Assembly (NCBI GenBank): GCA_031261705.1
Contig: JAISJD010000006.1
Location: 1-64,000 of the forward strand
Direction of reading: 5' to 3'
From: Lactobacillales bacterium
GTDB lineage: Bacteria; Bacillota; Bacilli; Lactobacillales; Streptococcaceae
DNA length: 64,000 nt
Under the pieces are notes generated by a model, which worked only from the letters and a program-made list of their open reading frames with translations, was not told the DNA's origin and searched no databases. Positions 19,000-51,141 of the stretch are shown in pieces. The position numbers and the translations under genes were made by a program. Positions within the stretch are counted from its first letter, which is position 1; each line of letters opens with the position of its first letter.

Positions 19000-20595
<1,596 letters not shown>

Positions 20596-37328: not shown

Positions 37329-38531
37329 CTATTTTAGAATATCAATCAAATCTTTACGAGCGGCAGCCGCTGCTGGCATTAAGCTAAAGATGACACCGAT
37401 AAAGGTCGATACTCCGAGTGATATGACAATCGTGAATAAATCAGGTGCGACAGAAAACGGTAAGAAAGTAGAGATAATCACTGCCGTCACCATGCCGAAA
37501 AGATAACCAACAATTCCACCAGTAACGGATAAAGTAATCCCCTCTAATAAAAACTGCCACTTAATATCTCGTTGTGTCGCTCCGAGTGCGCGCCGAATCC
37601 CAATTTCTTTGGTTCGTTCGGAAACGGAAATATACATCATGTTCATGACACCGACTCCGGCAATCAGAAGTGAAATACCCGCAATAGCTGAAATAAAGTA
37701 GGTCAGAATACTCAAGACCTTACTAATGCCGTTTGCTTCGTCCCCTACATCAAAGGTTTGATACTCCCCAAAGGAGCGCATAGTTCCCGCTGTTTCTAGG
37801 TGTTCCACAACCTTTTGCATGACGTCCTTGGCTGGTGCCCCCTCTTTGACAACGACTTCAATCGAATAGCGTTGTCCTTTTTGGTTGGGGAAATAGCTCT
37901 TATAGGTTTCGCGTGGAATATAGATATTTGAAGACCCACCAAACGTCAATCCGCTAGTACTACTATCATCTTTTTTGAACACGCCGACAATTTTAAATAA
38001 TTGTCCGTCCACCTCAACCCCATAGCCGATTGCTTTTTTGGGATCTGGATAGAATTTTTTTGCGGTAACCTCATCTACTACAGCAACTCTGTTTTTTAGT
38101 TCATTGTCACTTGTAGTCAAATCCCGACCATCGAGTAATTGTTGTCCAGACATATCCGCAAGCTCAATGGCCAAGTTTTTTGATTTCCCTTTGATATTTA
38201 CGTCCTTATATAAGGTGGTTTGCTCAGCCACTGGAAAACGAGCATCCTTTACACCGTCGATATTTTTCACCTGCTGCAAGTCAATCTCTTGAAAAAAATC
38301 AATATTGCTGCTAGTATTTCCGGTCGGCGTAAACCAAACTTCCTTGATGATTTCCTTACTATCCGTCTGTGTCAAACTTCTTATTGTATATCTTTCAAAC
38401 CCACGTCCCAAGGATAAAATCGTAATCACCGAGGCAATCCCAATCACAATCCCAAGCATGGTTAGAATACTACGGCGACGATTTTTGAGTAGCGCTTTGA
38501 GCGAACTTTTCCAAATTACATGAAGTTTCAT
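37329..38531 (-). CDS. MacB/YknZ-type ABC transporter permease
   Basis: 400 residues: an N-terminal helix (ILTMLGIVIGIASVITILSLG), a periplasmic-type MacB domain of ~230 residues, and three C-terminal helices with TKEIGIRRALGATQRDI (FtsX signature) between the first two. Four bases overlap the ATPase gene. With the ATPase and adaptor it forms a YknXYZ-like efflux system usually implicated in export of antimicrobial peptides or toxins. Order adaptor-ATPase-permease is that of yknXYZ. Confidence 0.9.
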   Translation of the reverse strand: MKLHVIWKSSLKALLKNRRRSILTMLGIVIGIASVITILSLGRGFERYTIRSLTQTDSKEIIKEVWFTPTGNTSSNIDFFQEIDLQQVKNIDGVKDARFPVAEQTTLYKDVNIKGKSKNLAIELADMSGQQLLDGRDLTTSDNELKNRVAVVDEVTAKKFYPDPKKAIGYGVEVDGQLFKIVGVFKKDDSSTSGLTFGGSSNIYIPRETYKSYFPNQKGQRYSIEVVVKEGAPAKDVMQKVVEHLETAGTMRSFGEYQTFDVGDEANGISKVLSILTYFISAIAGISLLIAGVGVMNMMYISVSERTKEIGIRRALGATQRDIKWQFLLEGITLSVTGGIVGYLFGMVTAVIISTFLPFSVAPDLFTIVISLGVSTFIGVIFSLMPAAAAARKDLIDILK

Positions 38532-39208
38532 TTTGCGACCACCTCGTCTCCGATGATTTTCCCATCTATAATGCGAATCAGACGATTACAATATTTAATT
38601 GTATCCGGATCATGTGTGACTAGGATAATCGTTGCACCCTCTTTGTTAAGCTTTTGGAACACTTCCATAATCTCTTTGGAGGTATGCGAATCAAGCGCTC
38701 CAGTCGGTTCATCAGCGATAATGAATTTTGGATCATTGACAATTGCCCGAGCAATCGCCACCCGCTGTTGTTGCCCCCCAGATAACTGCTTGGGGTGTTT
38801 TTTCACTTTATCGGCTAACCCCACACGCTCTGCCACTTCTAGCACACGTTCGGAGGTTTGACTGAAATTTTTCCCACCATATAACAGAGGTAGCTCGATA
38901 TTTTCATAAACAGTGTTGTTTTCAATCAATTGAAAGTTTTGAAAAACAAAGCCTACGTTTTTATTTCTCAGACTAGATAGCTCTTTATCAGACACCTTTT
39001 CCATAGTCTCCCCTTCAAAAAGGTAAGAGCCGTCAAATTTACGGTCAATAAACCCGATAAGATTGATTAAAGTGGACTTCCCTGAGCCGGACGGACCCAT
39101 GATAGCGACGAACTCCCCTTTGTCAATTGTAAGGTTCACATCTTGCAAGACATGCAGGCTTTCTTCTCCAGTCTTGTAATATTTATTCACGTCTTTTAAA
39201 TCAATCAT
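38528..39208 (-). CDS. MacB/YknY-type ABC transporter ATPase
   Basis: 226 residues: Walker A GPSGSGKSTLINLIG, Q-loop VFQNFQLI, signature LSGGQQQRVAIARAI, Walker B FIIADEPTGALD and switch His VTHDPD. Belongs to the LolD/MacB subfamily. Start overlaps the adaptor gene by eight bases, indicating tight coupling. Powers the mechanotransmission-type efflux complex. Confidence 0.95.
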   Translation of the reverse strand: MIDLKDVNKYYKTGEESLHVLQDVNLTIDKGEFVAIMGPSGSGKSTLINLIGFIDRKFDGSYLFEGETMEKVSDKELSSLRNKNVGFVFQNFQLIENNTVYENIELPLLYGGKNFSQTSERVLEVAERVGLADKVKKHPKQLSGGQQQRVAIARAIVNDPKFIIADEPTGALDSHTSKEIMEVFQKLNKEGATIILVTHDPDTIKYCNRLIRIIDGKIIGDEVVAK

Positions 39209-40448
39209 TGACCGTCGTCACTTTCTGTCCGCTAACTCCACCGCTCAAATCTCCATTAGAAACTTTGATTTCTTGACCGTCTTTAAAGGAAGGATCTGCT
39301 GTTCTGATGAGAACTTCTCCTTCTTTCAAGCCTTTTGTCGCAATCACTGTGCCGTCTTTTTTCTCAATTTCGATTTTCCGACGTTCTAATTTTCCGTCTT
39401 TATAGACAAAAACAGTCGCGCCCTTGTCATCTTCTAAGACTGCTTCTTGTGGAATAACGAGTTTATTCACTGGTAAAGACATTTGCACATTGTATCCATA
39501 TTGAATAAATTCTGCTGGTTTGACATTAAAATGATAATTCGAACTACCCGTGCTGGCAGCACCACCGTCTGCTCCCACACTAGCGGTTGGTACACGATCT
39601 ATTGAAACAATTTCCCCACTGATTTTCTTTTCTGAACCAATTCGTGCAATTTCAACTTTTTGTCCGACTGCTAAAGACGAATAGTCAAATTCTGAAACTT
39701 CTCCTTGCACATTTACTTCCTTATCCACGATTTTCACTAGCGGTGTGGATCCATCAAGTTTAGTAATTTCTTGAACGAGGGCAACACCGTCTGTTTTTGC
39801 GACTACAGAGGTGGTCACCTTTTCCTGCGCTCTTTCCAAGGCACTTTGCAAGTCACTCAAGTCAATTTCCCCACTTCTCACGGCACGTTCCGCTTGATTA
39901 ATCGCATCATTGGCAGTATCAACCTCTTGTTTTGCTAGGTCTACTTGACCATTTAACTCATTTACTTGTGCTTGATACTCTTCGGAATCTTTGCTCAAGC
40001 TGTTTAGCTTTTGTGTCACCTTATTCAAGTTACCCTGTGCGACATCTCTTTTTCTTACCGCATTGTTTAGCTCTGCCTGTGCGCCTTCGAGTGCCACACT
40101 ACTTTTATTCACACCACTCTTTTGTGTTTCCACGGCCTCCTGCTGTTCGTCATTTTGAAGAGTATAAAGCACCTCTCCTGTCTTGACTTCTTGACCGTTT
40201 TTCACCATTACTTGACCGATTTTTCCTTGTGTCGCATCTAAAAAGTAGCTCGTTTGATTTTGAGGAATAGAGGTTCCCTTAAAAGTTAACGGTTCCGCTT
40301 GCTTCACCTCATAGATTTCATACCCCGCATCTTCTACATTTTTTCCCTTATTTTTGAAAAATAGCACACCCACGACAATTAGAACAAAGAGCACGACTGC
40401 TGAAATGATAATGACGAGCTTTTTATTCTTCGCAAAAAACTTTTTCAT
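39201..40448 (-). CDS. Membrane-fusion (HlyD/YknX-like) efflux adaptor
   Basis: 415 residues: a membrane helix at 9-29, a lipoyl/biotinyl-like half (GKIGQVMVKNGQEVKTGEVL), a long Gln/Ala/Lys coiled coil (~110-205), then the second lipoyl half and a beta-barrel (AVLEDDKGATVFVYKDGKL). It would link the MacB-like permease to the cell exterior. First gene of the operon, with a TTGACA-16-TACAAT promoter about 220 bases upstream, leaving a long leader of unknown purpose. Confidence 0.88.
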   Translation of the reverse strand: MKKFFAKNKKLVIIISAVVLFVLIVVGVLFFKNKGKNVEDAGYEIYEVKQAEPLTFKGTSIPQNQTSYFLDATQGKIGQVMVKNGQEVKTGEVLYTLQNDEQQEAVETQKSGVNKSSVALEGAQAELNNAVRKRDVAQGNLNKVTQKLNSLSKDSEEYQAQVNELNGQVDLAKQEVDTANDAINQAERAVRSGEIDLSDLQSALERAQEKVTTSVVAKTDGVALVQEITKLDGSTPLVKIVDKEVNVQGEVSEFDYSSLAVGQKVEIARIGSEKKISGEIVSIDRVPTASVGADGGAASTGSSNYHFNVKPAEFIQYGYNVQMSLPVNKLVIPQEAVLEDDKGATVFVYKDGKLERRKIEIEKKDGTVIATKGLKEGEVLIRTADPSFKDGQEIKVSNGDLSGGVSGQKVTTVND

Positions 40449-40667
40449 ATTTCACTTTCCCCCTAATTTCTTCGTTTATTCTTATCAAAAAAATGATTGG
40501 ACGAAATAACGATGAGATTTCCGTAAATTAAAGCGCTCAATACCCTCCTTTTCTCGACAATACGAGGCGAGACTTAAACGAACCTTTAAAACACCCTTAT
40601 TTACGAAACATTAGTTATTTCTAATCAATCTGTAATAATCTAAGTAGTACACTATACCTTGTGTTTC

Positions 40668-40695
40668 ATTGTACAACATACAGCTTTTGTGTCAA
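40668..40695 (-). promoter_or_regulatory. Promoter of the efflux operon
   Basis: Minus-strand TTGACA (40690-40695), 16-base spacer, TACAAT (40668-40673). It lies just past the stop of the Cof-type phosphatase gene. Confidence 0.65.
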
Positions 40696-40729
40696 GAAAT
40701 TGTCAAACTTCTTCGTTATTAATAATATT

Positions 40730-41431
40730 TCATCTATTTTTTGTTAAAATTTCCGACAATCCCACCTCAAAACTTGGGATAATTTTCTGCGCTGCAAATT
40801 TTGCTGAAGGTGCCGCAAAGTCGAAGGAATACGAATAGTCCGCATGTTTTAAAATATCCGTGTCATTTTCGCCGTCACCAAAGCTATACACCGTCATTTC
40901 TTCCACAAATGGAGCCGTTAATTTTTGAAAGGTTTTCCATTTTCCTGAATCCTCGGGCATCACATCCAGATAAATGCCGTTTCCCTTGGCTGAAACACCT
41001 TGCACATTTTCATTAATTTCTCTTGTCAACTCCTGTGCATTCCTCACATCAATAAGAGAATAGGTGAGGCTATAAATTTCTTCATTCAGCACGCCACAAG
41101 TCGTATCTGTGATTTGCTCTTTATAAGTTTTCGCCAGCCGTTTGACTTCTTGTACCTGTCTTGCGCTAAGTTTGGTGGAATAAATGACATTTAAGTCCGC
41201 ATCTACTACCGCCGCACCGTTAGAACAAATCACGTAATCAAAGAAATCTATTTCATACTTTTCTATCGCTCGCTTGAAGCTATCAATATTACGCCCTGTT
41301 GCAATCACAAATGTATCAAGTATCTCGGTATTTTTCAGTTCAGTAAGTAATTCCCGCGTTTCCTCAGAAATTTCATGCGTGGAGAACGGAGCTATCGTCC
41401 CATCAAAATCACTTAGTATAATATTTTTCAT
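40730..41431 (-). CDS. Cof-type HAD phosphatase
   Basis: About 233 residues from MKNIILSDFDGTIAPF, chosen for AAGGAAAACG upstream; the longer frame adds a basic tail with no SD. HAD motif I SDFDGTI, motif II ATGR in FVIATGRNID, motif IV FGDGENDTDILKHADYS. The cap sits between motifs II and III as in class IIB sugar or pyridoxal phosphate phosphatases. Monocistronic. Substrate unknown. Confidence 0.85.
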   Translation of the reverse strand: MKNIILSDFDGTIAPFSTHEISEETRELLTELKNTEILDTFVIATGRNIDSFKRAIEKYEIDFFDYVICSNGAAVVDADLNVIYSTKLSARQVQEVKRLAKTYKEQITDTTCGVLNEEIYSLTYSLIDVRNAQELTREINENVQGVSAKGNGIYLDVMPEDSGKWKTFQKLTAPFVEEMTVYSFGDGENDTDILKHADYSYSFDFAAPSAKFAAQKIIPSFEVGLSEILTKNR

Positions 41432-41646
41432 TCGTTTTCCTTTCTTTTTTTTAAAATGAATCAGAGTCATTCTATCATTTTTTCTTCCAATAGAAAGCAC
41501 TATATCCTAAACGGTCGTTTTTTCATCATAAACGAACAAAACGAACAAAAATTTAAGGATACGTGCTCAAAATCGTACTTAATCCAACGTTTCACAAGTT
41601 TATTTTATCTCACTGAGGGTTTATTGCAAGTTTTGCGGGTAAAAAT

Positions 41647-41678
41647 AATACACGCACAAATTTCTCTGTGCGTGTATT
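41647..41678 (-). terminator. Terminator of the circular bacteriocin operon
   Basis: Perfect 12-bp arms (AATACACGCACA / TGTGCGTGTATT) with an eight-base loop, followed by ATTTTTACC on the minus strand. A near copy ends the lactococcin-type operon at 47586. Nothing else was seen between 41432 and 41753. Confidence 0.8.
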
Positions 41679-41753
41679 GAGTAAAATCTCCTTCAATAGC
41701 TCACGTGTTATTTTAAACGCAGTTTTTACATTTCTTCTCTTATTGAAGGTTTT

Positions 41754-42452
41754 TTATTCAATTTCTTGTATAGATGAAAGCACAATATCTTCAAGATTAT
41801 TTATAGTATCACATTTTTCTATAATATTATCTTTAAAAAGATAAACATTATCAGCTAGCCTTTTACAAAAGTCCATATCGTGGCTTGTCACTATTAATAG
41901 TTTACCCAAATTTTTATAATCAATAATTTTTTTTCTTAAAAAATCCAATGTAAATACGTCTAAACCAAGTGAAGGTTCGTCTAAAACTAAAATATCTGAA
42001 TCAACTAAATCCATAATCGCTAAGTTCAGCCTTTGTGTCATACCCTTAGAATAATCTTTTACCCACTTATTTTTATATTTTTCCAGTTGATATTCATCTA
42101 GTAAATCTCTTATTCTATCTTTATTAATATGAAATAACTCTGAAAAATACACTAAATTTTCTTGTGCTGACAAATAATCAATTGCAATATTCTCAACTGG
42201 TAAAAAAAACATCGATTGCCTTACGCTTTTGGGATAAGGGATGGATAATGCTTTGCCATCTAATATTATTTCCCCAAAATCAGGAACTAAGAGCCCCGTT
42301 ATTAATTCCATCAACGTTGTTTTACCTACGCCATTTTTTCCAACAAAAAAATTTATTGTCCCTAATTTGAAGTCTAATGATACATTGTCAATAACCAAGC
42401 AGTTATCAAAAGATTTTGATATATTTTTAATTTCTAATGTTCGTTCACTCAC
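41754..42452 (-). CDS. ABC transporter ATPase of the circular bacteriocin operon
   Basis: 232 residues, GTG start. Walker A VGKNGVGKTTLMELI, signature YSKGMTQRLNLAI, Walker B DILVLDEPSLGLD, switch TSHDMDF. In circular bacteriocin clusters (AS-48, circularin A, carnocyclin A) the last core gene encodes such an ATPase; with a membrane partner it supports export and producer self-protection. It overlaps the preceding membrane-protein gene by eight bases. The cargo is inferred from operon context. No separate small immunity gene was found. Confidence 0.85.
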   Translation of the reverse strand: MSERTLEIKNISKSFDNCLVIDNVSLDFKLGTINFFVGKNGVGKTTLMELITGLLVPDFGEIILDGKALSIPYPKSVRQSMFFLPVENIAIDYLSAQENLVYFSELFHINKDRIRDLLDEYQLEKYKNKWVKDYSKGMTQRLNLAIMDLVDSDILVLDEPSLGLDVFTLDFLRKKIIDYKNLGKLLIVTSHDMDFCKRLADNVYLFKDNIIEKCDTINNLEDIVLSSIQEIE

Positions 42453-43023
42453 CTAATAACACACTCCCTATCATCAATATTTCATAAATACAAAATAAAA
42501 AAATGGGTAAAAATGCTTTGATTTTCTCAGTATATGGATACATCGCATAAAAAAACTTTATAACTCCAACTATAAGCGCTAATACTACCACAAAATTAGT
42601 TGAAATAAGTGTTAATTCCTTATGCGTTACAAACATAATTACTGATAAAATTGCATAATTAATTATACTTACGCAAAATAACCGATAAGCAACTTGCTCG
42701 TTTACTTTTTTATCAAGAATCGATTTATTTTTTTTACGAAATATATTTTCCACTCTTATAAGTAAAGAAAAAAAATGCTTTATTAGAAAAATTGTAACCA
42801 CTGCATTTATAGTTCTAAAACTAAATTGAATAAAAAAATTATTAAATGTAGATTTGATTGCTTCAAAAGTTTTTATAGTATCTGTTCCAGATATATTAAG
42901 AGAAGTATCAATTAACTGTGACATAACTGTTGTAGAATGCGTATAAGCTATACTATAAATAGCCAGTGATAAAAATAAAAATAAATAAAAATACTTACTG
43001 TTAATATTTTTTGTAAATTTCAT
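42445..43023 (-). CDS. Small membrane protein of the circular bacteriocin operon
   Basis: 192 residues with five or six hydrophobic segments and a basic cytosolic loop (RVENIFRKKNKSILDKKV). Position between the SpoIIM-family gene and the ATPase suggests it is the membrane partner of that ATPase, and possibly the immunity determinant. No named family recognised. GAGGAGGG before the ATG. Very AT-rich. Confidence 0.65.
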   Translation of the reverse strand: MKFTKNINSKYFYLFLFLSLAIYSIAYTHSTTVMSQLIDTSLNISGTDTIKTFEAIKSTFNNFFIQFSFRTINAVVTIFLIKHFFSLLIRVENIFRKKNKSILDKKVNEQVAYRLFCVSIINYAILSVIMFVTHKELTLISTNFVVVLALIVGVIKFFYAMYPYTEKIKAFLPIFLFCIYEILMIGSVLLGE

Positions 43024-43039
43024 ACCGATTTTCCCTCCT

Positions 43040-43549
43040 CTACAAATTCATAGAAACTGTTCCCTCAATAAATGCAGCAATAAAATTAAGAATCCCTGTT
43101 ATAACCATGATTTCTACACCTTGAAAAATAAAATCTTTCCAACGAAAATTAGAATTTTTTTTCACTAACTGGTACAATAAAAGAAAACCAAAGGCACTTG
43201 CCAAAAAAATAGATGGAATTTCTACTATCCCATGTGGAAGTATTTTTAGGAGCATATTTTTTATTCCAAACTCATCGGCATAAAAATGAATACTTGCTCC
43301 AAATATAAAAAAATTATAAATAAGTAAAGCAATATCAATTAATCCGAGAGAAAAAACTCCTATAATGATAAGAAGTGAAACTTTTTCATTATTTAAAAAA
43401 ATATCTAGCACAGAATAGTTAGGTTTCTGAGCATCGATAGAAAAAGTTGATGAAAATCCCCACCCTATATAAAACGCAATTCCGCCTATAATTATAGAAA
43501 TAATACCGCAGATAAATAATTCTTTTTTAAACAATTTTTGAATATTCAC
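43040..43549 (-). CDS. SpoIIM/DUF95 membrane protein of the circular bacteriocin operon
   Basis: 169 residues, GTG start, about five helices. LLKILPHGIVEIPSIFLASAFGF and the late ITGILNFIAAFIEG are the hallmarks of the SpoIIM (DUF95) family. A DUF95 protein is a constant member of AS-48-like gene clusters (As-48C, CirC, CclC) and is thought to take part in maturation, secretion and immunity. Overlaps the upstream gene by 23 bases. Strong support for the cluster assignment. Confidence 0.82.
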   Translation of the reverse strand: MNIQKLFKKELFICGIISIIIGGIAFYIGWGFSSTFSIDAQKPNYSVLDIFLNNEKVSLLIIIGVFSLGLIDIALLIYNFFIFGASIHFYADEFGIKNMLLKILPHGIVEIPSIFLASAFGFLLLYQLVKKNSNFRWKDFIFQGVEIMVITGILNFIAAFIEGTVSMNL

Positions 43550-45029
43550 CGTAAAATCCTCTTACCTTTCTTTTGAAAATATAATGGTGTAAAACTATTG
43601 AGACAGTAAGCATAAACACTAAAGAAAATACGCCTAAAAAATTGGTATGAAATATTTCACCCAAAAATAAGCAAAAAAGGAGCATATATTCTGTCAGCGA
43701 AGATACAATAACAAACATTACGGAACTAACTATCGATACTCCCATTAGGTCATTCAAAAATTTACCTTTGTAATTTGTATAATAAACATTCGTTATACAA
43801 ATATGTAAAAGTAGTATACCTGAGATAAAAAGTGCTCCTATAAATGTTAAAAAATTACATAACCCAGTTAAAAATAAAACTAAAATAATAATAAATGACA
43901 AAACTATATTTAATGTAAATAGGCTTATTATTTTATTTCTGAGAAGGTACATCATAGGATATTTAGATTGTATATAATTTAAAATAGTATTTTGTTCTTC
44001 AGATAGTGTGAAAGAGGAAACCTTAGTAAAATTGGTAAAATAAAATGTACTAACAATTAATAATACAGATAAAAGAGAAATATTTTTTAATGCAATATGT
44101 TGAATTTTACAATTAAGAAAGACTAATAATAAAGAAAATAAAAAAATCACGCCATTCACTGTTATTTTCTTTATGATTTCAGCATTCTCCATTAATTGTA
44201 TTTCTTTTTTCAATAAGGGATTGATTTTATGATTCTTTATTATAAAATGAGTTCCTATTTTAATACTTTTATCTATCCATAGTTCTTCTCTTTTATTTTT
44301 TATATTGTATTTATTCATCGAACATAAAAACACGTATAACAAACTTAGCAAAGTGTAGCCAATAATCACAAGTATTAGAAAAGAGCCCGAAAATTTCGTA
44401 AGCGTCTTTGCGATTAGCCACTTGTTGCTTTGAGTAATCTTTCTTATTACCCGTTCTATTATTTGAAAATCTTGTGTTAAAAAAATAAATAACAGAACTG
44501 ACTGGATAAATATCTGAATAAATTTCAATAAATAATCAATAGAATTTATTCGACTGAAAACTAATTTGAATAGGCTGGCTATTTTTCTATTCATCAAAAA
44601 AGAAAAACATGACAAAATAAAAATAAATAATATATATAAATGAGATTTACTTATCATAAGGAATGGAATAACTACAAACAGTAGACAGAAAGCATATTCA
44701 GCACCTGATAACACCTCGTATTTTATGGATTTAAAAAGCAGCAATTGTTGTTTTCTGTAAGGCAGCAATACTAAAAATTTATTCTTATCACTTTTCAAAT
44801 ATTTTTCAAATCTAAAATCTGATAAAAAGAAACCAACTACAGAAAAAACAAAAATAGAATTTATTACAGTTATTTCATAATTTTCAATAAATGTTTTAAA
44901 AAATATCATGCCTGTATAAATTAGAAAAATAAAACAAAAACCAATAAACGCACCTAAGTATTGATTGCTATCTGTATCAAAATATTGTCTTTTCAATGCA
45001 ATAAGTTCATATTTCATTGCTTTCAGCAT
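43527..45029 (-). CDS. Large membrane protein of the circular bacteriocin operon (CirB-like position)
   Basis: 500 residues, about 12-13 hydrophobic segments with short basic loops and no enzymatic motif. In known circular bacteriocin operons the gene after the precursor encodes a large membrane protein required for production, and this one has the same place and size. It could be the cyclase or translocase, whose identity is unsettled in the family. It has its own promoter with a conserved 15-bp element, separate from the precursor gene. SD AAGGAG twelve bases before the ATG. Confidence 0.7.
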   Translation of the reverse strand: MLKAMKYELIALKRQYFDTDSNQYLGAFIGFCFIFLIYTGMIFFKTFIENYEITVINSIFVFSVVGFFLSDFRFEKYLKSDKNKFLVLLPYRKQQLLLFKSIKYEVLSGAEYAFCLLFVVIPFLMISKSHLYILFIFILSCFSFLMNRKIASLFKLVFSRINSIDYLLKFIQIFIQSVLLFIFLTQDFQIIERVIRKITQSNKWLIAKTLTKFSGSFLILVIIGYTLLSLLYVFLCSMNKYNIKNKREELWIDKSIKIGTHFIIKNHKINPLLKKEIQLMENAEIIKKITVNGVIFLFSLLLVFLNCKIQHIALKNISLLSVLLIVSTFYFTNFTKVSSFTLSEEQNTILNYIQSKYPMMYLLRNKIISLFTLNIVLSFIIILVLFLTGLCNFLTFIGALFISGILLLHICITNVYYTNYKGKFLNDLMGVSIVSSVMFVIVSSLTEYMLLFCLFLGEIFHTNFLGVFSLVFMLTVSIVLHHYIFKRKVRGFYGEYSKIV

Positions 45030-45049
45030 ATATTTATTTTCACTCCTTA

Positions 45050-45082
45050 CTATTAGATTGATTTTTACAAAAAATGAATGAG
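45050..45082 (-). promoter_or_regulatory. Conserved-element promoter of the bacteriocin biosynthesis genes
   Basis: On the minus strand CTCATTCATTTTTTG (45068-45082) is followed after exactly 12 bases by TAATAG (45050-45055) as -10. The same arrangement occurs at 45751-45783 and 46609-46641. There is no good -35, as expected for an activator-dependent promoter. Confidence 0.6.
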
Positions 45083-45108
45083 ATTTTTAACATCTTAAAA
45101 ATGTTACT

Positions 45109-45141
45109 GGTTAGATAATCTTGCGGGTTATTTTTTTATAA
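45109..45141 (+). repeat. Right-facing copy of a 33-base inverted repeat flanking the bacteriocin gene
   Basis: GGTTAGATAATCTT-CGGGTTA followed by a T-run. It matches the minus-strand sequence at 45529-45561 with two mismatches over 33 bases. In the minus-strand transcript the two copies could pair across the whole precursor gene. Confidence 0.7.
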
Positions 45142-45204
45142 ATACGATTAAATACTTAAACTTAACAAATTGTGTCAGTTAAATTGCATAAAAATTATTT
45201 CGAA

Positions 45205-45450
45205 TTACCAAGCACAAAATGCTTTTTTTCCACCTTTAAATTTATTTAAAATATATACTCCACCTAACCCAACAATAGCAGCAATTACAATAGCTCCCAC
45301 TCCTGTAACCGCACAAGTAGCAATTGCCTGAACAACTCCTATCGCTCCTTTACTCGCCGCTCTAGCAACAATAGCATAAATTGCCGCTGCCGCTGCTGTT
45401 GAAATTCCAAATGTTCCAGTTAACAAGAATAATTTCATCAATTTTTTCAT
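45205..45450 (-). CDS. Circular bacteriocin precursor (class I, AS-48/enterocin NKR-5-3B type)
   Basis: 81 residues from the ATG ten bases after AAGGAG; an ATG three codons earlier is too close to the SD. A short leader MKKLMKLFL precedes a probable mature chain of 72 residues starting LTGTFGISTAAAAAIY and ending KGGKKAFCAW. It is highly hydrophobic, Ala/Gly/Val-rich, with a basic C-terminal helix. The start resembles enterocin NKR-5-3B (LTANLGISSYAAK) and the aromatic C-terminus matches the head-to-tail Leu-Trp junction of that family. Two Cys (mature 37 and 70) are unusual. Operon partners agree. Expected product: a cyclised membrane-permeabilising peptide. Confidence 0.85.
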   Translation of the reverse strand: MKKLMKLFLLTGTFGISTAAAAAIYAIVARAASKGAIGVVQAIATCAVTGVGAIVIAAIVGLGGVYILNKFKGGKKAFCAW

Positions 45451-45528
45451 TTTTATCATTCTCCTTATAATAAATTAATTTTTTTAATATATTCATTTGT
45501 TATACATCGTTCCACCATAAAAATAACC

Positions 45529-45561
45529 TTACAAAAAAATAACCCGAAAGATTATCTAACC
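45529..45561 (-). repeat. Left-facing copy of the 33-base inverted repeat, terminator-like
   Basis: Read on the minus strand, ATAATC-TTTC-GGTTAT forms a small hairpin followed by T7, which could partly end the transcript of the 26-codon gene upstream before it reaches the bacteriocin gene. Partner copy at 45109-45141. Confidence 0.6.
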
Positions 45562-45576
45562 AAAAAAGCACTTTAC

Positions 45577-45657
45577 TTAATAAGTAGTGATGTAAATAAA
45601 CTCTTCTTCCTCCACCACCAAACCACACCCTCCAAAGAACCAATGAATTATTGACAA
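45577..45657 (-). CDS. 26-residue peptide upstream of the bacteriocin gene
   Basis: TTG start with AGGAGG at the ideal eight-base distance; reads MSIIHWFFGGCGLVVEEEEF and stops just before a terminator-like hairpin. The unit thus has a promoter, SD, short gene and hairpin. A longer frame (45500-45694, 64 residues, beginning MEVENYVLGGGLIVNN) overlaps it, begins upstream of the SD and runs through the hairpin. Both readings are possible: the short one by start signal, the long one by a protein-level match of its first ten residues to the peptide at 46502. Function unknown; candidate pheromone, leader or second bacteriocin. Confidence 0.4.
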   Translation of the reverse strand: MSIIHWFFGGCGLVVEEEEFIYITTY

Positions 45658-45703
45658 TTAAACCACCTCCTAATACATAATTTTCAACTTCCATCGACCC
45701 AAA

Positions 45704-45720
45704 AATTGATTAAATCAATT
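45704..45720. promoter_or_regulatory. 17-bp palindrome, copy 1
   Basis: AATTGATTAAATCAATT, a perfect palindrome about 30 bases downstream of the -10 box at 45751. Identical to 46562-46578, with its 13-bp core also at 50911-50923. Likely operator. Confidence 0.5.
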
Positions 45721-45750
45721 AACTACATAGTTACTTACCCTTCTTTACTT

Positions 45751-45783
45751 TTTATAAGAATAATGTAACAAAAAATGAATGAG
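45751..45783 (-). promoter_or_regulatory. Conserved-element promoter of the 26-codon gene
   Basis: CTCATTCATTTTTTG (45769-45783), 12 bases, then TATAAA (45751-45756) on the minus strand. Read-through of the downstream hairpin would also transcribe the bacteriocin gene, which has no other visible promoter. Confidence 0.65.
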
Positions 45784-45854
45784 ATTTAGAAAATGTAAAC
45801 AAAATTCACATTTTAAATAAGAAGTACGGACAGAATTGCTTGTATCTCTTGTTT

Positions 45855-46035
45855 TTTATGACGTTCATCTTTTTTCAACAGATTTTTTAAATGCTTCATC
45901 CTAGTAATTTCCACTCTGAACAATTTCCCCGTTATCGACAATAATAATTTCATCACTTTGTGCAAAGATTTCTTCATTAAAACAAAATATAGTATTCTTG
46001 TCTATTGTATTTGCATAATTCTTATTAAATCAACG
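45855..46035 (-). pseudogene. C-terminal fragment of an ABC transporter ATPase
   Basis: Minus-strand translation gives NTIFCFNEEIFAQSDEIIIV followed by DNGEIVQSGNY, a stop, then DEAFKKSVEK. The IIIVDNGEIVQSG stretch is the D-loop/H-loop-distal end of ABC exporter ATPases of the bacteriocin-export type. No Walker A or signature motif remains upstream. It appears to be the tail of a deleted exporter gene. Confidence 0.55.
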
Positions 46036-46184
46036 TTTATGGAACATCAATAATAGAGATATGGAAATGGTCGATTGGACACTGCGTATATTTTGTTTCC
46101 TAGAAACAACTTCATCGTACAATTTTTTTATAAATTTGTGTTTGTAATGTCATAAACGGTCGATTTTTTGTCATGAATGACCTC

Positions 46185-46415
46185 GACTAACCATTAACAG
46201 CGAGTCTGACAGAGAATTATAATTTGAATTGTTCATATTGTTATCAAAATAGTTTTTTCAAAAAATCTATATCTTTTGAACCGCTCGATAATATAATTTC
46301 TTATATTGAATCTGTATTATTGCACGATGAAACGAAACGCTTAGTCGATATTTTTTTTGGGTGGAGAACCTACGCTTTATAGAAATAAAACTTTATTTTT
46401 ATTATAATTAGCAAA
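46185..46415 (+). pseudogene. Remnant of a radical-SAM peptide-maturation enzyme
   Basis: Plus-strand translation PLTASLTENYNLNCSYCYQN contains the end of a radical-SAM CxxxCxxC motif with the first Cys changed to Tyr (codon TAT). After about 35 further codons a one-base shift restores FFGGEPTLYRNKT, the GGEP motif of SAM binding. No start, the first cysteine lost, a frameshift and an early stop: clearly inactive. Such enzymes modify ribosomal peptides (sactipeptides, streptide-like). Beside an Rgg regulator this recalls the Rgg-linked radical-SAM peptide loci of streptococci. Confidence 0.6.
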
Positions 46416-46501
46416 AATTATCACAACCGCTTTACTCTTCACATTGGCACTGTTATTATTAATTTGTAATTTTGAAACTATGGACAAAAATAATGAATAA
46501 T

Positions 46502-46552
46502 TCAAATTAATTTTCTATCACATCCTCCCAATACATAGTTTCCAACTTCCAT
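46502..46552 (-). CDS. Candidate 16-residue peptide divergent from the Rgg-type gene
   Basis: Frame MEVGNYVLGGCDRKLI on the minus strand. Its first ten codons match those at 45694 (MEVENYVLGG) with three synonymous and one amino-acid change, a pattern suggesting coding. The ...NYVLGG segment recalls the Gly-Gly ending of SHP pheromones that pair with Rgg proteins, but here the frame continues past the GG. No clear SD precedes the ATG. The alternative is that the similarity reflects a conserved SD region (GGGAGG) of the repeat. Confidence 0.3.
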   Translation of the reverse strand: MEVGNYVLGGCDRKLI

Positions 46553-46561
46553 TGAACCAAA

Positions 46562-46578
46562 AATTGATTAAATCAATT
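46562..46578. promoter_or_regulatory. 17-bp palindrome, copy 2
   Basis: AATTGATTAAATCAATT, identical to the copy at 45704. Lies between the divergent peptide frame and its -10 box, about 110 bases upstream of the regulator gene. Confidence 0.5.
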
Positions 46579-46608
46579 ACTACATAGTTACTTACCCCTC
46601 ATTTACTT

Positions 46609-46641
46609 TTTATAAGAGTAATGTAGCAAAAAATGAATGAG
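46609..46641 (-). promoter_or_regulatory. Conserved-element promoter divergent from the Rgg-type gene
   Basis: CTCATTCATTTTTTG (46627-46641), 12 bases, TATAAA-type -10 (46609-46614) on the minus strand. Same layout as the promoters at 45050 and 45751. Confidence 0.6.
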
Positions 46642-46690
46642 ATTTTGAAAATGTAAACAAAATTCACACTTTCTATTGGAGGAATATATA

Positions 46691-47554
46691 ATGGAGTATA
46701 ATATTGAAAAATTCGGAGAAAAATTTAAGGAAATTAGACAAAACAAACATTTATCACAAAAAGAAGTTTGTGGAAAGGAGATTTCAAGAACTACCTTATC
46801 AAAATTTGAAAATGGAGGTCGTTCTATGAATATTCATCATTTTCTCCGACTGCTAGAAAGAATTGACATGTCTTTTGATGAATTTAGTTACATTTGTTCT
46901 GATTACACTCTTAAACCTAAAAAGCAAATTGTTGCGGATTTTTTATCCCTCTATTCAAATTATGATATTCAAAGTATCACAAAACTGATTAAGGATTCAG
47001 AAAACTATCTTGCAATTAGCGATAATTGGTATGTAAAAGCAATTTTGGAGGTTTCACATGCCTATCTCCAAGATCAAAAAGATACCCCTGATTTAATCAA
47101 TGCTACTGCAACAAAAATTATTCCAATGGTATGGGAGGAATTATCTAAACAAGATGAGTGGTATCTGCTAGATTTAAGATTATTAAATGCTATCTTATAT
47201 TCTTTCCCTATTGAAACTACTGGTCAGATTGCTAAAGAAGTTAAAAAAAGAATTGGGAAATATCAAAATTTCACGCAAGTTTTACCATTGATAACTGCGC
47301 TTTATTTGAATCTTTCTCTTCTTTATTTACAAAATAATAAGAGTGAAAAAGCCGAAAATATTCTATCCGAAGCCAAAAACTTAGCTTATCAACTAAAAAG
47401 AACAGATTTCCTAGCCGTTGCCCTAGTCCGCCACGGTATCGCCACCAAAAACAAACAAGAAATGGAACAAGGAGTTTTGCTTTCGACTTTCCTTCAAGAT
47501 AAAAACTTACAAAAAGAATTACAAGAGGAAGTTGAAAATTTGAGTATCGCTTAA
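46691..47554 (+). CDS. Rgg/GadR/MutR-family transcriptional regulator
   Basis: 287 residues from the ATG after GGAGGAATATATA; a TTG five codons earlier overlaps the SD. N-terminal XRE helix-turn-helix (FKEIRQNKHLSQKEVCGKEI and SRTTLSKFENGGRSM) joined to a C-terminal all-helical TPR-like domain of ~210 residues, the layout of Rgg proteins, which bind short peptides. The only regulator in the bacteriocin island; likely controls the three matching promoters. A deleted copy of its gene and promoter lies at 50895-51141. Confidence 0.85.
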   Translation: MEYNIEKFGEKFKEIRQNKHLSQKEVCGKEISRTTLSKFENGGRSMNIHHFLRLLERIDMSFDEFSYICSDYTLKPKKQIVADFLSLYSNYDIQSITKLIKDSENYLAISDNWYVKAILEVSHAYLQDQKDTPDLINATATKIIPMVWEELSKQDEWYLLDLRLLNAILYSFPIETTGQIAKEVKKRIGKYQNFTQVLPLITALYLNLSLLYLQNNKSEKAENILSEAKNLAYQLKRTDFLAVALVRHGIATKNKQEMEQGVLLSTFLQDKNLQKELQEEVENLSIA

Positions 47555-47585
47555 TAAATATTCTAATTCCCCTTATAATTAAGAA

Positions 47586-47620
47586 AAAACACGCACAATT
47601 TTCTCTCTGTACGTGTTTTA
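47586..47620. terminator. Shared bidirectional terminator
   Basis: AAAACACGCACA / TGTACGTGTTTT arms with one mismatch, between the converging regulator gene (plus) and exporter operon (minus). A- and T-runs on both sides suit both directions. Near-identical to the terminator at 41647. Confidence 0.7.
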
Positions 47621-47624
47621 CTAT

Positions 47625-48233
47625 TTAAAGTGTCGTTACATCAATGATTTGATTTACTCGCTGATACACATTTGGATCATGAGTAGCAAAAATTACCGTA
47701 GTTTCCGAAGAAACAAGACTTAGTAGCAAGGAGATAATCGTTTCTCCTGTTTCTTCATCTAGCGCACCAGTTGGCTCATCTGCTAAGATAACTTTAGGAT
47801 TCTTGAGTAAGATTCTAGCGATAGCCACTCGCTGTGCTTGTCCACCAGATAATTCGTAAATTTTCGCTTTTAAATAACTTTCGTCCAAACCAACTCGGGC
47901 TAACGCTTCACGTATTTGTTTGCCACTTCCCACAAGTTTTAAGTTTTGTTCAACCGTTTGCTCATCAATCAGTGCATAGTTTTGAAAAACATAACCTAAA
48001 TAATTTTTAAAATATTCAGCTTCCTTCATTTTTGACCAAATATCCCGTCCATTATATAAAATCTCCCCAGAGCTAGGCTTTTCAAGGCGAGCGATAGCAT
48101 TTAGCAAGGTTGTCTTTCCAGAACCGGAAGGACCAATTAATGCGTAGGAAGTCCCTGTTTGAAAGTTTAAATTCACCTTATCAAAAACAGTCTTCCCTCC
48201 GTATTGTTTACATAAATTTTTTAATTCTATCAT
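47625..48233 (-). CDS. Lactococcin-972-type bacteriocin export ABC ATPase
   Basis: 202 residues: Walker A IGPSGSGKTTLLNAIA, Q-loop VFQNYALI, signature LSGGQAQRVAIARIL, Walker B VILADEPTGALDE, switch FATHDP. This compact MacB/LolD-like form is the usual partner of the bacteriocin-associated membrane protein in lactococcin 972 clusters. Overlaps the membrane-protein gene by four bases. Provides energy for export or immunity. Confidence 0.88.
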   Translation of the reverse strand: MIELKNLCKQYGGKTVFDKVNLNFQTGTSYALIGPSGSGKTTLLNAIARLEKPSSGEILYNGRDIWSKMKEAEYFKNYLGYVFQNYALIDEQTVEQNLKLVGSGKQIREALARVGLDESYLKAKIYELSGGQAQRVAIARILLKNPKVILADEPTGALDEETGETIISLLLSLVSSETTVIFATHDPNVYQRVNQIIDVTTL

Positions 48234-50248
48234 AAAAATTCAAAATCTCCCTTCAAAATTTGTACTCTTTTCTCTTTCACCCGCCACAGTGCAAGGAAAA
48301 CTAACGCAACGATTTCGATAAGATACATTAGACAAACAATAAAAATAGCAAATATATTTTTTGTTTCCGCATAGGCAAAGCCACTCGCAAAAAAAATTCC
48401 AACAATCAAAAAAGCTAACATTTTCATTATTTCAACGGCAACAGGTTTTCCGAAAAAGCTTTTAATCGCCAGTTGTTTCGCCCTATTTTTAATTTGCAAA
48501 ATAATATATTGATAAAGGACAAAGAGTTGAGCAAAAACAAGGGCAACTAAAGCAATAATTGTTCCCGTAAGCTGACTTTTCACTTTATTTCGTTTAAGCA
48601 GAACGTCTTGACTTGCATTTGTCAATGAAGAAAAGGTACTTTCTAACTCTGCATTTTTTATATTTTGAGGAATCTTCGTTTGATTAAACAAAGAATCAAA
48701 AGAAATATTACTATAATCTAAATTCAACGTTTCATCGTCACTTGGGAAATTTTCAAAATTCAATTGAACCAAAATAGCATCTTTTTTCATTTGCTCGGCG
48801 AGTAATTCTGTTTCTCCCTCCACATCTCGAAAAAGAAAAGTCACTTGTCCGTCTGGAATGGGAACTATTTCAAACTGTTCAGAGGAAACAGACGAATGTT
48901 GAAACCATTCAAACATCAAGATATTTTTGATTTTATCCGTAGATGAAAGAAATTTTTCTGGGATATAAATGGTAACGGGTAATGCGTTATTCCCGTTCCC
49001 ATACTGATTTTTAGGATAAAGCTGTTTATTCTTCTCGACCATTCCTTGATTTACATAAAAAATATTCTGTGCCACTTTTATGTCGACCCCTGCTTTATCG
49101 AGATCCTCTTTGAATCTTGGATTTTCTAGCACATGTGAATCGCCAAGGTCAGATTTTTGTGAATAAATCATCTCTTCTTCTTTGAATGATAAGACAAACT
49201 CTTTATTTTTCTGTGCCTGCCGTTTCATTGACCCTGCATCAATCTGATGGTTTTCATCTGTATATTCTTCTTCTGCAGAGAACCATGTGATTCGTGCAAA
49301 GTTACTAGCGACTGCCCATTTTTCTAAAACACCTATTTGTTTCGTCAATTCTTGAGAAACCTGTGTCATCTTACTTGCGGTTATTCCAAAAATAAAGACA
49401 GAAATCAAAATACCAAAAAGCCAAACATATGAAATAAGTCCCTGCGATTTTTTATTTTTCAACACTTTTAAAGGTGCCGTTAAACGAATATTAAGAGCAA
49501 ATAATCCATTTGCAACCAGAGAAACCCAGAGAAGAGAAAGTGCGATAACACTCATTAACAATGCAAATGATTTAACAAATACACTATCAATAGAGCGCTG
49601 CCAAAGTGAAAAGAGACCGATAACAAGAAACAGCTCGATTAAAATGATGCCAACATCTGAAAAGGTTGCTTTCCACATTGCTTTCCGAAAAATCCCTAAA
49701 CTTCGTTGAATCATCGCTTTTTTCACGTACATCATTTTCACTGCGAATAATAAAACCGCAAAAACGAAAAGAAGCGTCCAAACCGCTAGGGAACGAATAT
49801 TCCCAACAAAAAAATCAATTGGTGTTAGCCACCAGCCTATATCGCCTGCTTTATACTGAAAACCTAAAACTTCAAGTTTATTTTTCAGATTTTTTGAGAT
49901 AGATTTACTACTGTAATACATCCCCGTTATTGTTGTGTCACTAAGTAAATTTTTATCTGCTGAATAGTTTTTATTTTTTAGATAAGGAGCCGCTTCTCCG
50001 AAAACATATACTTTTTCCTGTCCCTTTTCTTGCAAGATAGGCTTAAATAAAACGAGATTATTTTCCTTTGAAAGTTCATCAAGCTGAGCATAGATTTGCT
50101 CTTTTGGTAAATTCCCTTCGTACCTTGTTAAATTTACTCCTGCCTGTGCGGGATAGTTTATATCGTTCCCAAATTCTTTGATTTCTCCCAAAGCCAATAA
50201 AGAAAATAAAAGAAGAACAAAGCTTAAAACAGTGATACGCCACTTCAT
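48230..50248 (-). CDS. Bacteriocin-associated integral membrane protein (lactococcin 972 group)
   Basis: 672 residues: an N-terminal helix, ~140 extracytoplasmic residues, a cluster of four or five helices (~155-300), a second long external domain (~310-545), and three C-terminal helices (TGTIIALVALVFAQLFVLYQ onward). Size and layout match the DUF1430-type protein found after lactococcin 972-like genes. It forms an FtsX-like permease with the downstream ATPase, acting in export and/or producer protection. Strong TTTGGAGG SD. Confidence 0.85.
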   Translation of the reverse strand: MKWRITVLSFVLLLFSLLALGEIKEFGNDINYPAQAGVNLTRYEGNLPKEQIYAQLDELSKENNLVLFKPILQEKGQEKVYVFGEAAPYLKNKNYSADKNLLSDTTITGMYYSSKSISKNLKNKLEVLGFQYKAGDIGWWLTPIDFFVGNIRSLAVWTLLFVFAVLLFAVKMMYVKKAMIQRSLGIFRKAMWKATFSDVGIILIELFLVIGLFSLWQRSIDSVFVKSFALLMSVIALSLLWVSLVANGLFALNIRLTAPLKVLKNKKSQGLISYVWLFGILISVFIFGITASKMTQVSQELTKQIGVLEKWAVASNFARITWFSAEEEYTDENHQIDAGSMKRQAQKNKEFVLSFKEEEMIYSQKSDLGDSHVLENPRFKEDLDKAGVDIKVAQNIFYVNQGMVEKNKQLYPKNQYGNGNNALPVTIYIPEKFLSSTDKIKNILMFEWFQHSSVSSEQFEIVPIPDGQVTFLFRDVEGETELLAEQMKKDAILVQLNFENFPSDDETLNLDYSNISFDSLFNQTKIPQNIKNAELESTFSSLTNASQDVLLKRNKVKSQLTGTIIALVALVFAQLFVLYQYIILQIKNRAKQLAIKSFFGKPVAVEIMKMLAFLIVGIFFASGFAYAETKNIFAIFIVCLMYLIEIVALVFLALWRVKEKRVQILKGDFEFL

Positions 50249-50269
50249 AAGTTTCCTCCAAATAGATGC

Positions 50270-50291
50270 GGTCTTGAAAATTCAAGACCGG
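50270..50291 (-). other. Perfect hairpin between bacteriocin and exporter genes
   Basis: 10-bp arms CGGTCTTGAA / TTCAAGACCG with a two-base centre, between the bacteriocin stop codon and the exporter SD, with no T-run. Likely lowers exporter expression relative to bacteriocin or protects the bacteriocin mRNA 3' end. Confidence 0.6.
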
Positions 50292-50319
50292 TCTGGTTTT
50301 ATATTTTTTTAATCATAAC

Positions 50320-50655
50320 TTAAAAATTGTACCAACCATAATAACAATTCGCACGAACCCATGAAATTGTTTTCTTTGCACCAGATTTAGCCCAACCATA
50401 ATCTTGTTTGTCAAAATCTTTCACCTTTCCAAATATATCTGTCACTGAAGATGAACTTCCAAGGCGAATAGGCGCTTCCAAATAATAATCGGAATAAGCC
50501 CAATTATCACTAGTCACTCCATAATTCCAATTATCCAAATAAGTTGGGTGGGGATGCTCAGTTGTTGCACTTGCCATTATTGTAGGGACGATAAAACTAA
50601 CGAGTAGTCCTGTTGTTAGAAATCCTTTAGAAATTGAATTTTTAAACTTTTTCAT
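50320..50655 (-). CDS. Lactococcin-972-family bacteriocin precursor
   Basis: 111 residues. Sec signal peptide (MKKFKNSISKGFLTTGLLVS, then FIVPTIMASA), mature part of ~80 residues. It has the family pattern: Trp/Tyr/Gly-rich start (WNYGVTSDNWAYSDYY), basic centre, and the C-terminal CYYGWYNF, comparable to the FYYNFW end of lactococcin 972. Two mature-region residues stand out: a single Cys and an AKSGAKKT loop. Lactococcin 972 itself acts on septum formation through lipid II in lactococci. GAGGAG SD. Followed by its exporter genes. Confidence 0.85.
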   Translation of the reverse strand: MKKFKNSISKGFLTTGLLVSFIVPTIMASATTEHPHPTYLDNWNYGVTSDNWAYSDYYLEAPIRLGSSSSVTDIFGKVKDFDKQDYGWAKSGAKKTISWVRANCYYGWYNF

Positions 50656-50763: not shown

Positions 50764-50894
50764 TAGAATCTCAATATTCCCCTCTCCTTACCACATATAA
50801 TACAGGCTCAATTTTAATTCCATGTAAATATTAAATTAAGATTTTGTATAGTAGACGCTTTCTTTTACAGCTAAGCAAAAACACCACAATTTTT

Positions 50895-51141
50895 TCCGTT
50901 GAACCAAAAATTGATTAAATCAAGGAATCACATAGTTACTTACCTCATTTACTTTTTGTAAGAGTAATGTAAACAAAATTCACACTTTCTATTGGAGGAA
51001 TATAGAATGGAGTATAATATTGAAAAATTCGGAGAAAAATTTAAGGAAATTAGACAAAACAAACATCTTACATAAAAAGAAGTTTGTGGAAAGGAGATTT
51101 CAAGAGCTACTTTATCAAAATTTCACGCAAGTTTTACCATT
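50895..51141 (+). repeat. Second copy of the regulator's promoter and 5' end
   Basis: From CCGTTGAACCAAAAATTG onward this repeats the 46553-46810 region, including the TTGATTAAATCAA palindrome and the GGAGGAATATAG SD. The CTCATTCATTTTTTG element has been deleted between two ATGTA words. Together with the intact copy it brackets the lactococcin-type operon as a direct repeat. Confidence 0.75.
51007..51141 (+). pseudogene. Deleted copy of the Rgg-type regulator gene
   Basis: Starts MEYNIEKFGEKFKEIRQNKH like the intact protein, then a stop codon (TAA) at codon 23. After TLSKF the sequence jumps to the region of codon ~191 of the intact gene, removing 463 bases. The junction is an 11-base sequence (TATCAAAATTT) found at both deletion ends in the intact copy (46798 and 47261). 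No functional product. Confidence 0.85.

Follow-up and report, generated by a model that had tools for sequence, protein, structure and literature searches.

The closest described systems to the locus analysed here are the gene clusters of circular (head-to-tail cyclised) bacteriocins. The as-48 genes are reported in the order A-B-C-C1-D (PMC8306556, PMC3942455), and the AS-48/bacteriocin 21 cluster of pPD1 (NZ_KT290268.1), in whose record C1 is unannotated, was used for comparison. The SpoIIM gene serves as a marker to find cyclised bacteriocins (PMC8659200, PMC5695211). The search described in PMC8534725 asked for the genes of a precursor, a SpoIIM/DUF95 protein and an ATP-binding protein together, and for a precursor sharing 30% identity or more with a known one across 60% of the latter; its 6,928 candidate precursors formed 28 groups, 19 of which were less than 50% similar to any known one. 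PMC7132975 reported 94 undescribed circular bacteriocins. The protein which removes the leader and closes the ring is described as not known for this class in PMC8659200. The present locus lies in a 64,000-nucleotide stretch from a Lactobacillales bacterium (the window, bases 1-64000 of contig C47), belonging to a 2.13 Mb draft genome of 50 contigs with 78.7% completeness. Five genes on the minus strand, from 45450 to 41754, very probably form a horizontally acquired cassette for a circular bacteriocin with a divergent precursor family. Gene content, gene order, the relationship of the SpoIIM protein and a weak but above-chance similarity of the precursor all support this predicted kind.

Gene order and relatives of the cluster

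The five genes are intact and co-oriented in the order A-B-C-C1-D (Table 1) and encode the precursor, a polytopic membrane protein, a SpoIIM protein, a second membrane protein and an ABC transporter ATPase. The gap between A and B is 178 nucleotides, while the spacing is -23 for B/C, +16 for C/C1 and -8 nucleotides for C1/D. The order, as well as the overlap of B with C, is in accordance with the published description of AS-48, and the original prediction that the five genes reproduce an AS-48-type core was borne out. The precursor, SpoIIM and ATPase genes searched for in PMC8534725 occur together here. The proteins B and C1 gave nothing above cut-off in Pfam and are matched to as-48B and as-48C1 through position, without sequence support. 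C1 is the probable membrane partner of ATPase D and possibly an immunity protein. A cassette of real origin that has decayed here or was misassembled, and is therefore non-functional, is extremely improbable. The draft state of the genome in 50 contigs and a broken radical-SAM-like fragment with repeated sequence just upstream speak for it; against it, no frame of the five is interrupted, B to D overlap or are tightly spaced, a ribosome-binding site precedes A and a terminator-like hairpin follows D. The scan of the region revealed three such terminator-like sites where 2.3 are expected by chance. The lower end of the hairpin, 41647, is the start coordinate which had originally been given for the cluster.

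The precursor was searched against 335 genomes of the same family (Streptococcaceae). A match at E <= 0.1 was obtained in 40 genomes, and only three were far above noise: the window's own genome, G050 (4.6e-25, 64% identity) and G036 (1.7e-14, 47%). Among the matches weaker than 1e-3 in these 40 genomes, that of G009 alone was inspected and is a PF09221-type precursor. In a scan of named genome contigs, the G050 and G036 loci were taken as L049 (JAISXW010000035.1, Streptococcaceae bacterium isolate Nc350_bin195) and L050 (JAISYB010000168.1, Nc350_bin205), with precursors 67% and 47% identical to that of the window. The Nc350 sample is presumably from termite gut, for which the literature search gave no confirmation. 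Both loci show the same order of precursor, 487-residue membrane protein, 173-residue SpoIIM protein, membrane protein (217 residues in L049, or 193 from a later start, and 187 in L050) and ATPase. Identity to the window is 28% and 25% for B in L049 and L050 respectively, 30-35% for C, 24-25% for C1 and 49-50% for D. The five-gene set is more than a chance grouping, as all five genes have counterparts in the same order in two other genomes. A precursor profile run on 395 genomes of the order (E <= 0.01) gave three genomes and no new relative; these were the window's own and two with weak matches inside frames of 457 and 397 residues, which were taken as chance. Precursor relatives were not found in viral contigs and plasmids (tblastn of the precursor against plasmids gave nothing at E <= 1), and the scan of genome contigs with the single window SpoIIM protein did not find relatives.

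The neighbours of the five genes differ in the three genomes. The cluster of L049, whose flanks were mostly named by inspection, has proS-like and TetR-like genes before it and a 97-residue frame and an F-G-H transporter set after it. By inspection, L050 is flanked by a polA-like gene and an XRE-type regulator, the latter lying divergent beside the precursor and being similar to the Rgg-type gene of the window. The flanks in the window are the Rgg gene, a HAD-type gene and an F-G-H set. The G+C content of the cluster is 26.5% in the window compared to 37.3% for the rest of it (37329-47600 left out), 27.9% compared to 42.0% in L049, and 31.0% compared to 38.2% in L050, where the latter value is for the polA-like part only. 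The AT-rich five genes and their differing neighbours suggest repeated horizontal acquisition of a cassette. The A-B gap was also searched for a hairpin like that of AS-48; the hairpin was strong in L049 (z -6.22) and weak in L050 (z -1.36), and in the window none beyond chance was found (z 0.35, with 148 of the 178 nucleotides folded).

SpoIIM and precursor evidence

The SpoIIM gene was found in 29 of the 335 family genomes. Precursors of PF09221 were found in 15, of which 14 were above cut-off, and SpoIIM was present in all of these 14. The three-protein SpoIIM profile of the family recovered the SpoIIM of 10 of 11 circular bacteriocin loci (E 9.6e-16 to 4.8e-4) and missed AS-48C. Its best match among the 11 loci was that of aureocyclicin 4185 on pRJ101 (NZ_MF706324.1; E 9.6e-16). 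The FastTree phylogeny of 23 SpoIIM sequences placed the window, L049 and L050 in one clade (support 0.90), adjoining a clade of uberolysin-like sequences and aureocyclicin (0.83) with a joining node of 0.78. The window SpoIIM protein had nine plasmid matches; two of the plasmids were opened, namely Priestia p2, with four circular bacteriocin genes, and pRJ101 of S. aureus strain 4185, and in both the match adjoins circular bacteriocin genes. The latter was taken as the plasmid of aureocyclicin 4185, a bacteriocin named in PMC8534725. In the alignment of 23 SpoIIM proteins including that of the window, an Asn, the Glu of H[GA]xxE and a later Glu are invariant (23/23) and the His is kept in 21; these columns may correspond to functional residues.

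The start of the precursor is likely the second ATG, at 45450, because AAGGAG lies 10 nucleotides upstream and the homologous precursors of L049 and L050 likewise begin with MKK. The 81-residue precursor would then comprise a 9-residue leader, MKKLMKLFL, and a 72-residue core, LTGTFGIST...FCAW, which agrees with the core length and first residues originally predicted. The window core has a charge of +6, a linear isoelectric point of 9.93 and a grand average of hydropathy (GRAVY) of 1.21, while the cores of L049 and L050 have 72 and 70 residues. The core ends are kept in all three members of the family as [LI]TG[TS]FG[IL]S...AW and were aligned with the ends of circular precursors in the profile-profile comparison. 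A terminal aromatic residue is present in most of the sequence logos of circular bacteriocins given in PMC8659200.

These conserved ends bear on the alternative that export by the same machinery yields a linear peptide, in the manner of leaderless or leader-cleaved saposin-like bacteriocins, which appears rather unlikely. The short conserved MKK start, a cyclase which is not identified, and low-confidence AlphaFold models showing long helices instead of a compact bundle are in its favour, and transporters like AS-48EFGH also serve leaderless enterocins (PMC10598978, PMC8306556). It is opposed by the conservation of both core ends in 3/3 members with their alignment to circular precursor ends, and by SpoIIM itself, the published marker gene for cyclised bacteriocins.

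The similarity of the precursor to circular bacteriocins was then evaluated by profiles. With a profile of five close Streptococcaceae circular precursors, the window scored 12.5 bits and L050 11.9 bits, and none of 1000 shuffles scored as high for either. With a profile of 15 known or putative precursors, L050 scored 15.1 bits (0/1000 shuffles as high). The profile-profile score of the family was 23.0 against the 15 precursors (0/200 column shuffles as high, maximum 18.7; reversed 18.2) and 23.1 against the five (0/200; reversed 11.5). The sole NCBIfam match of L050 at E <= 1 was TIGR03651, residues 9-80 aligning on 1-73 of 73, with E 0.008 and 16.5 bits, below the cut-off of 30.7. Every one of these tests is weak by itself, but combined with the gene order they make a convincing case for the predicted kind. 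A two-helix membrane peptide of another role (holin-like, toxin or signal) which merely lies beside a SpoIIM/ABC set is highly improbable. Such a role would suit the very hydrophobic sequence (GRAVY 1.21), the hairpin-like model of low confidence and the Pfam matches, which are only at noise level and to unrelated families. It is contradicted by the position of the precursor at the head of the same five-gene order in three genomes, by its resemblance to circular precursors beyond shuffles and by the full-length, though below cut-off, match of L050 to TIGR03651.

Several results weigh against assigning the locus to the circular bacteriocins. The window precursor, like those of L049 and L050, stays below every curated bacteriocin cut-off in Pfam and NCBIfam, and it has no match at the PF09221 and TIGR03651 cut-offs. 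Among the known or canonical precursors used as controls, Pfam passed 4 of 4 and NCBIfam 3 of 4; since even aureocyclicin stays under the NCBIfam cut-off, a precursor that misses this threshold may still be of the kind. On the 15-precursor profile the window scored 4.0 bits (13/1000 shuffles as high), and L049 was weak on both profiles, with -1.8 bits (101/1000) on that of 15 and 3.6 bits (7/1000) on that of five. The profile-profile probability was 31%, and realignment left 27 aligned columns where 64 were aligned without it; with the profile of five, the highest-scoring column shuffle reached 22.9, near the real 23.1. The net charge is 0 for the L049 core and +1 for that of L050. The two cysteines and 72 residues of the window core lie outside the description in PMC7132975, which gives class I lengths of 58-70 residues and, among 119 sequences, 10 with a single cysteine and none with a cysteine pair. 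The AlphaFold models of the three sequences (pLDDT, the predicted local distance difference test score, 61.7 and 59.4; no known bacteriocin was folded as control) are poor at 59-62 and show three helices with no clear saposin-like bundle of four to five. No detectable relation of B and C1 to proteins of known clusters was observed, and the same holds among three B-position proteins of known clusters compared with one another. A small cationic immunity open reading frame (ORF) of the As-48D1 type was not found on the coding strand of the cluster, while PMC7132975 describes immunity genes in almost every cluster. Between 41600 and 45460 the only coding-strand frame of 30-100 residues besides the precursor has 36 residues (a 44-residue frame from 45496 overlaps the precursor), so that the original statement of an absent or unrecognised separate immunity gene held. 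Homologues of D1 and EFGH are described as frequently missing in PMC5695211, and because no specific immunity gene is identified there in the pumilarin cluster, a small immunity protein is not required for membership.

The precursor was compared with the known bacteriocins individually. The window core resembles AS-48 in being cationic and ending in AW. It differs in that the precursor is about 30% identical over 67 aligned residues (global alignment, not BLAST) and that its leader has 9 residues against the 35 given for AS-48 in PMC8306556. The closest precursors were those of putative PF09221 bacteriocins of Streptococcaceae (L034, L036, L037, L039 and L040; 38-43% over 60-61 residues), which share GIST near the start and an A[VI]TGVG segment with the window. 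They have 63 residues after the first Leu against 71 in the window, and they pass PF09221 whereas the window does not. Enterocin NKR-5-3B (PDB 2mp8) shares with the window a GIS close to its N-terminus and is similar at its end, AAAW, a likeness read without alignment; it has 64 residues, with no cysteine in residues 2-64 shown. Its Streptococcaceae relatives L038 and L041 are 34-39% identical to the window. The cluster of pRJ101 differs in its order of ATPase, SpoIIM, a 167-residue protein and precursor, and its precursor is shorter (64 residues). No near-identical known bacteriocin was found in the PDB sequences, plasmid records and genomes searched, in keeping with the original view that the sequence is unlike known circular bacteriocins. 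The cluster was not found among the listed papers on termite and Streptococcaceae bacteriocins and on circular bacteriocin mining, whose supplementary lists could hold these metagenome-assembled genome sequences. The cluster is of a well-known kind and new in its divergent precursor family.

Among the 29 SpoIIM-bearing family genomes, 15 including the window's had no PF09221 match at E <= 0.001, and in the part of these 15 examined some carry a small frame recognised by the 15-sequence profile. Circular bacteriocin precursors can thus escape standard models while the SpoIIM neighbour reveals them.

Proposed ring, export and self-protection

In the proposed mechanism of the circular bacteriocin, the 81-residue precursor would be made, its 9-residue leader removed and Leu10 joined to Trp81, giving a cationic ring of 72 residues (+6) with a computed average mass of 6937.2 Da, compared to 6955 Da for the linear form. 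The cleavage and closure activity may reside in B or a host protease. ATPase D would export the ring, partnered in the membrane by the SpoIIM protein C, by C1 or by both, and the ring would insert into and permeabilise the membranes of competing Gram-positive bacteria. Self-protection would come from C, since an immunity role has been reported for SpoIIM proteins, and perhaps also from the AS-48FGH-like transporter downstream. In PMC5695211 the SpoIIM domain is linked with both immunity and circularisation. According to PMC7132975, cells without the SpoIIM protein built up leucocyclicin Q in its circularised form, an observation in favour of a SpoIIM role in export and not in ring closure. The compact five-gene core, present in three gene neighbourhoods, offers a convenient minimal system for the question of leader removal and ring closure.

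The window core contains two cysteines, Cys37 and Cys70, while L049 has one and L050 none. The core was not filed under subgroup I of circular bacteriocins, which PMC7132975 describes as polybasic, because of its 72 residues and two cysteines, though it is cationic. Cysteines as a functional feature of the family were rejected as they are not conserved in L049 and L050; the window peptide is unusual in its cysteine pair, which is no family trait. A bicyclic bacteriocin, in which the head-to-tail ring also carries a Cys37-Cys70 disulfide, is very unlikely. It would be produced by a core A-B-C-C1-D that works without a dedicated protease or a small immunity protein, hence holding the leader-cleaving and cyclising activity itself, most likely in B, to which the cyclising function is narrowed because the leucocyclicin Q data favour SpoIIM in export.

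The strongest candidates for self-protection in the preferred circular cassette are the SpoIIM protein and, 1.3 kb downstream, the AS-48FGH-like transporter. In AS-48, EFGH provides additional self-protection (PMC8306556), and the F, G and H homologues of the window are 33%, 65% and 49% identical to those of AS-48. Unlike in AS-48, the F-G-H set is split from D by the HAD-type gene, and no D1- or E-like ORF was found at the places in the window expected from AS-48. F-G-H, which is co-oriented with the cluster, is a putative part of it. Its G+C content of 41.7% is unlike the 26.5% of the core, so the cassette may have landed beside an existing transporter. Sets of F-G-H adjoin SpoIIM in L049, L083, L118, L119, L121, L122, AS-48 and pRJ101, and weaker H matches were obtained in L124, L125 and L135. 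As a specific marker F-G-H was rejected, since in L081, L082 and L085 a trio occurs although no SpoIIM was found within the 19 kb fetched, and that of the window shows no greater similarity to SpoIIM-linked than to standalone trios. A role of F-G-H in immunity here is no more than plausible.

Features near the cluster and in other genomes

The coordinates of the features are summarized in Table 1. The divergent Rgg-type gene is a possible regulator of the cluster.

Table 1. Features of the cluster and its surroundings in the window
Feature	Coordinates	Strand	Evidence
A, precursor, 81 residues	45208..45450	-	ORF; stop codon 45205-45207
B, 500-residue polytopic membrane protein, as-48B position	43527..45029	-	12 hydrophobic segments (crude hydropathy)
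C, SpoIIM (former DUF95) protein, 169 residues	43040..43549	-	Pfam SpoIIM 2.8e-21
C1, 192-residue membrane protein, as-48C1 position	42445..43023	-	5 hydrophobic segments (crude hydropathy)
D, ABC transporter ATPase, 232 residues	41754..42452	-	Pfam ABC_tran 2.9e-24
Terminator-like hairpin after D	41678-41647	-	14-pair stem and T run
F-like, HlyD-type membrane fusion protein, 415 residues	39201..40448	-	33% to AS-48F; HlyD_3
G-like, ABC ATPase, 226 residues	38528..39208	-	65% to AS-48G
H-like, MacB/FtsX permease, 400 residues	37329..38531	-	49% to AS-48H; MacB_PCD, FtsX
Rgg-type regulator, divergent, about 1.2 kb upstream	46676..47554	+	Rgg_C 6.1e-7, HTH_3 6.9e-7

The precursor gene is flanked by a 34-nucleotide inverted repeat (45108-45141 and 45529-45562, 94% complementary), with no third copy among the listed genome matches, for which 40 of 73 candidates were scored. 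This repeat might enable inversion of the precursor gene. No such pair flanks the precursor in L049 and L050; L050 has another inverted pair upstream of its precursor. A 45-nucleotide direct repeat (73% identical, at 41502 and 46147) appeared to bracket the cluster and was rejected as an insertion footprint, because its motif AAACGGTCG has 10 copies across the genome (<=2 mismatches) and the longer sequence surrounding the 46147 copy is multicopy. The motif AAACGGTCGNTTTTTNNTCAT lies at 41509-41529 and 46154-46174 and also on contigs C7, C19, C34, C41 and C42 of genome G000, with 10 genome copies (<=2 mismatches) against none for the backwards control. On C7, C19 and C41 copies are paired in inverted orientation, as in a small mobile element or repeat.

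A second bacteriocin-type locus with its own terminator-like hairpin neighbours the cluster at 47586-50655 (-). It encodes an exported-looking peptide of 111 residues with a weak Lactococcin_972 match (E 0.06), a 672-residue membrane protein, which falls short of the TIGR01654 cut-off (9.6e-17), and an ATPase that scores 235.2 bits on TIGR03608 (4.8e-70; cut-off 254.85). A repeated region was found at 45666-45814, 46524-46672 and about 50894-50996, of which the first two copies are 91-92% identical; it includes a possible short peptide start, MEVENYVLGG, and one copy lies just before the Rgg gene. At 46224-46382 (+) a 52-codon fragment with CSYCYQN resembles a broken radical SAM enzyme (Pfam E 0.06). 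The fragment and the repeated peptide start look like the remains of another peptide cluster.

In other genomes, L121 (genome G040, 7263-7793) showed two small candidate precursors of 107 and 63 residues, ending in AAGW and GISF, which precede SpoIIM and an F-G-H set. Neither passes PF09221, and they are possibly another unrecognised type of circular bacteriocin. The genome G009 (L033, L130-L132), of 1.3 Mb and from the same family, carries 10 SpoIIM and 6 PF09221 matches, of which two are adjacent pieces and one is below cut-off; this load of circular bacteriocin clusters is unusual for its size. A T-box leader was also located in the window at 19008-19222 (+) (Rfam RF00230, 100.1 bits).

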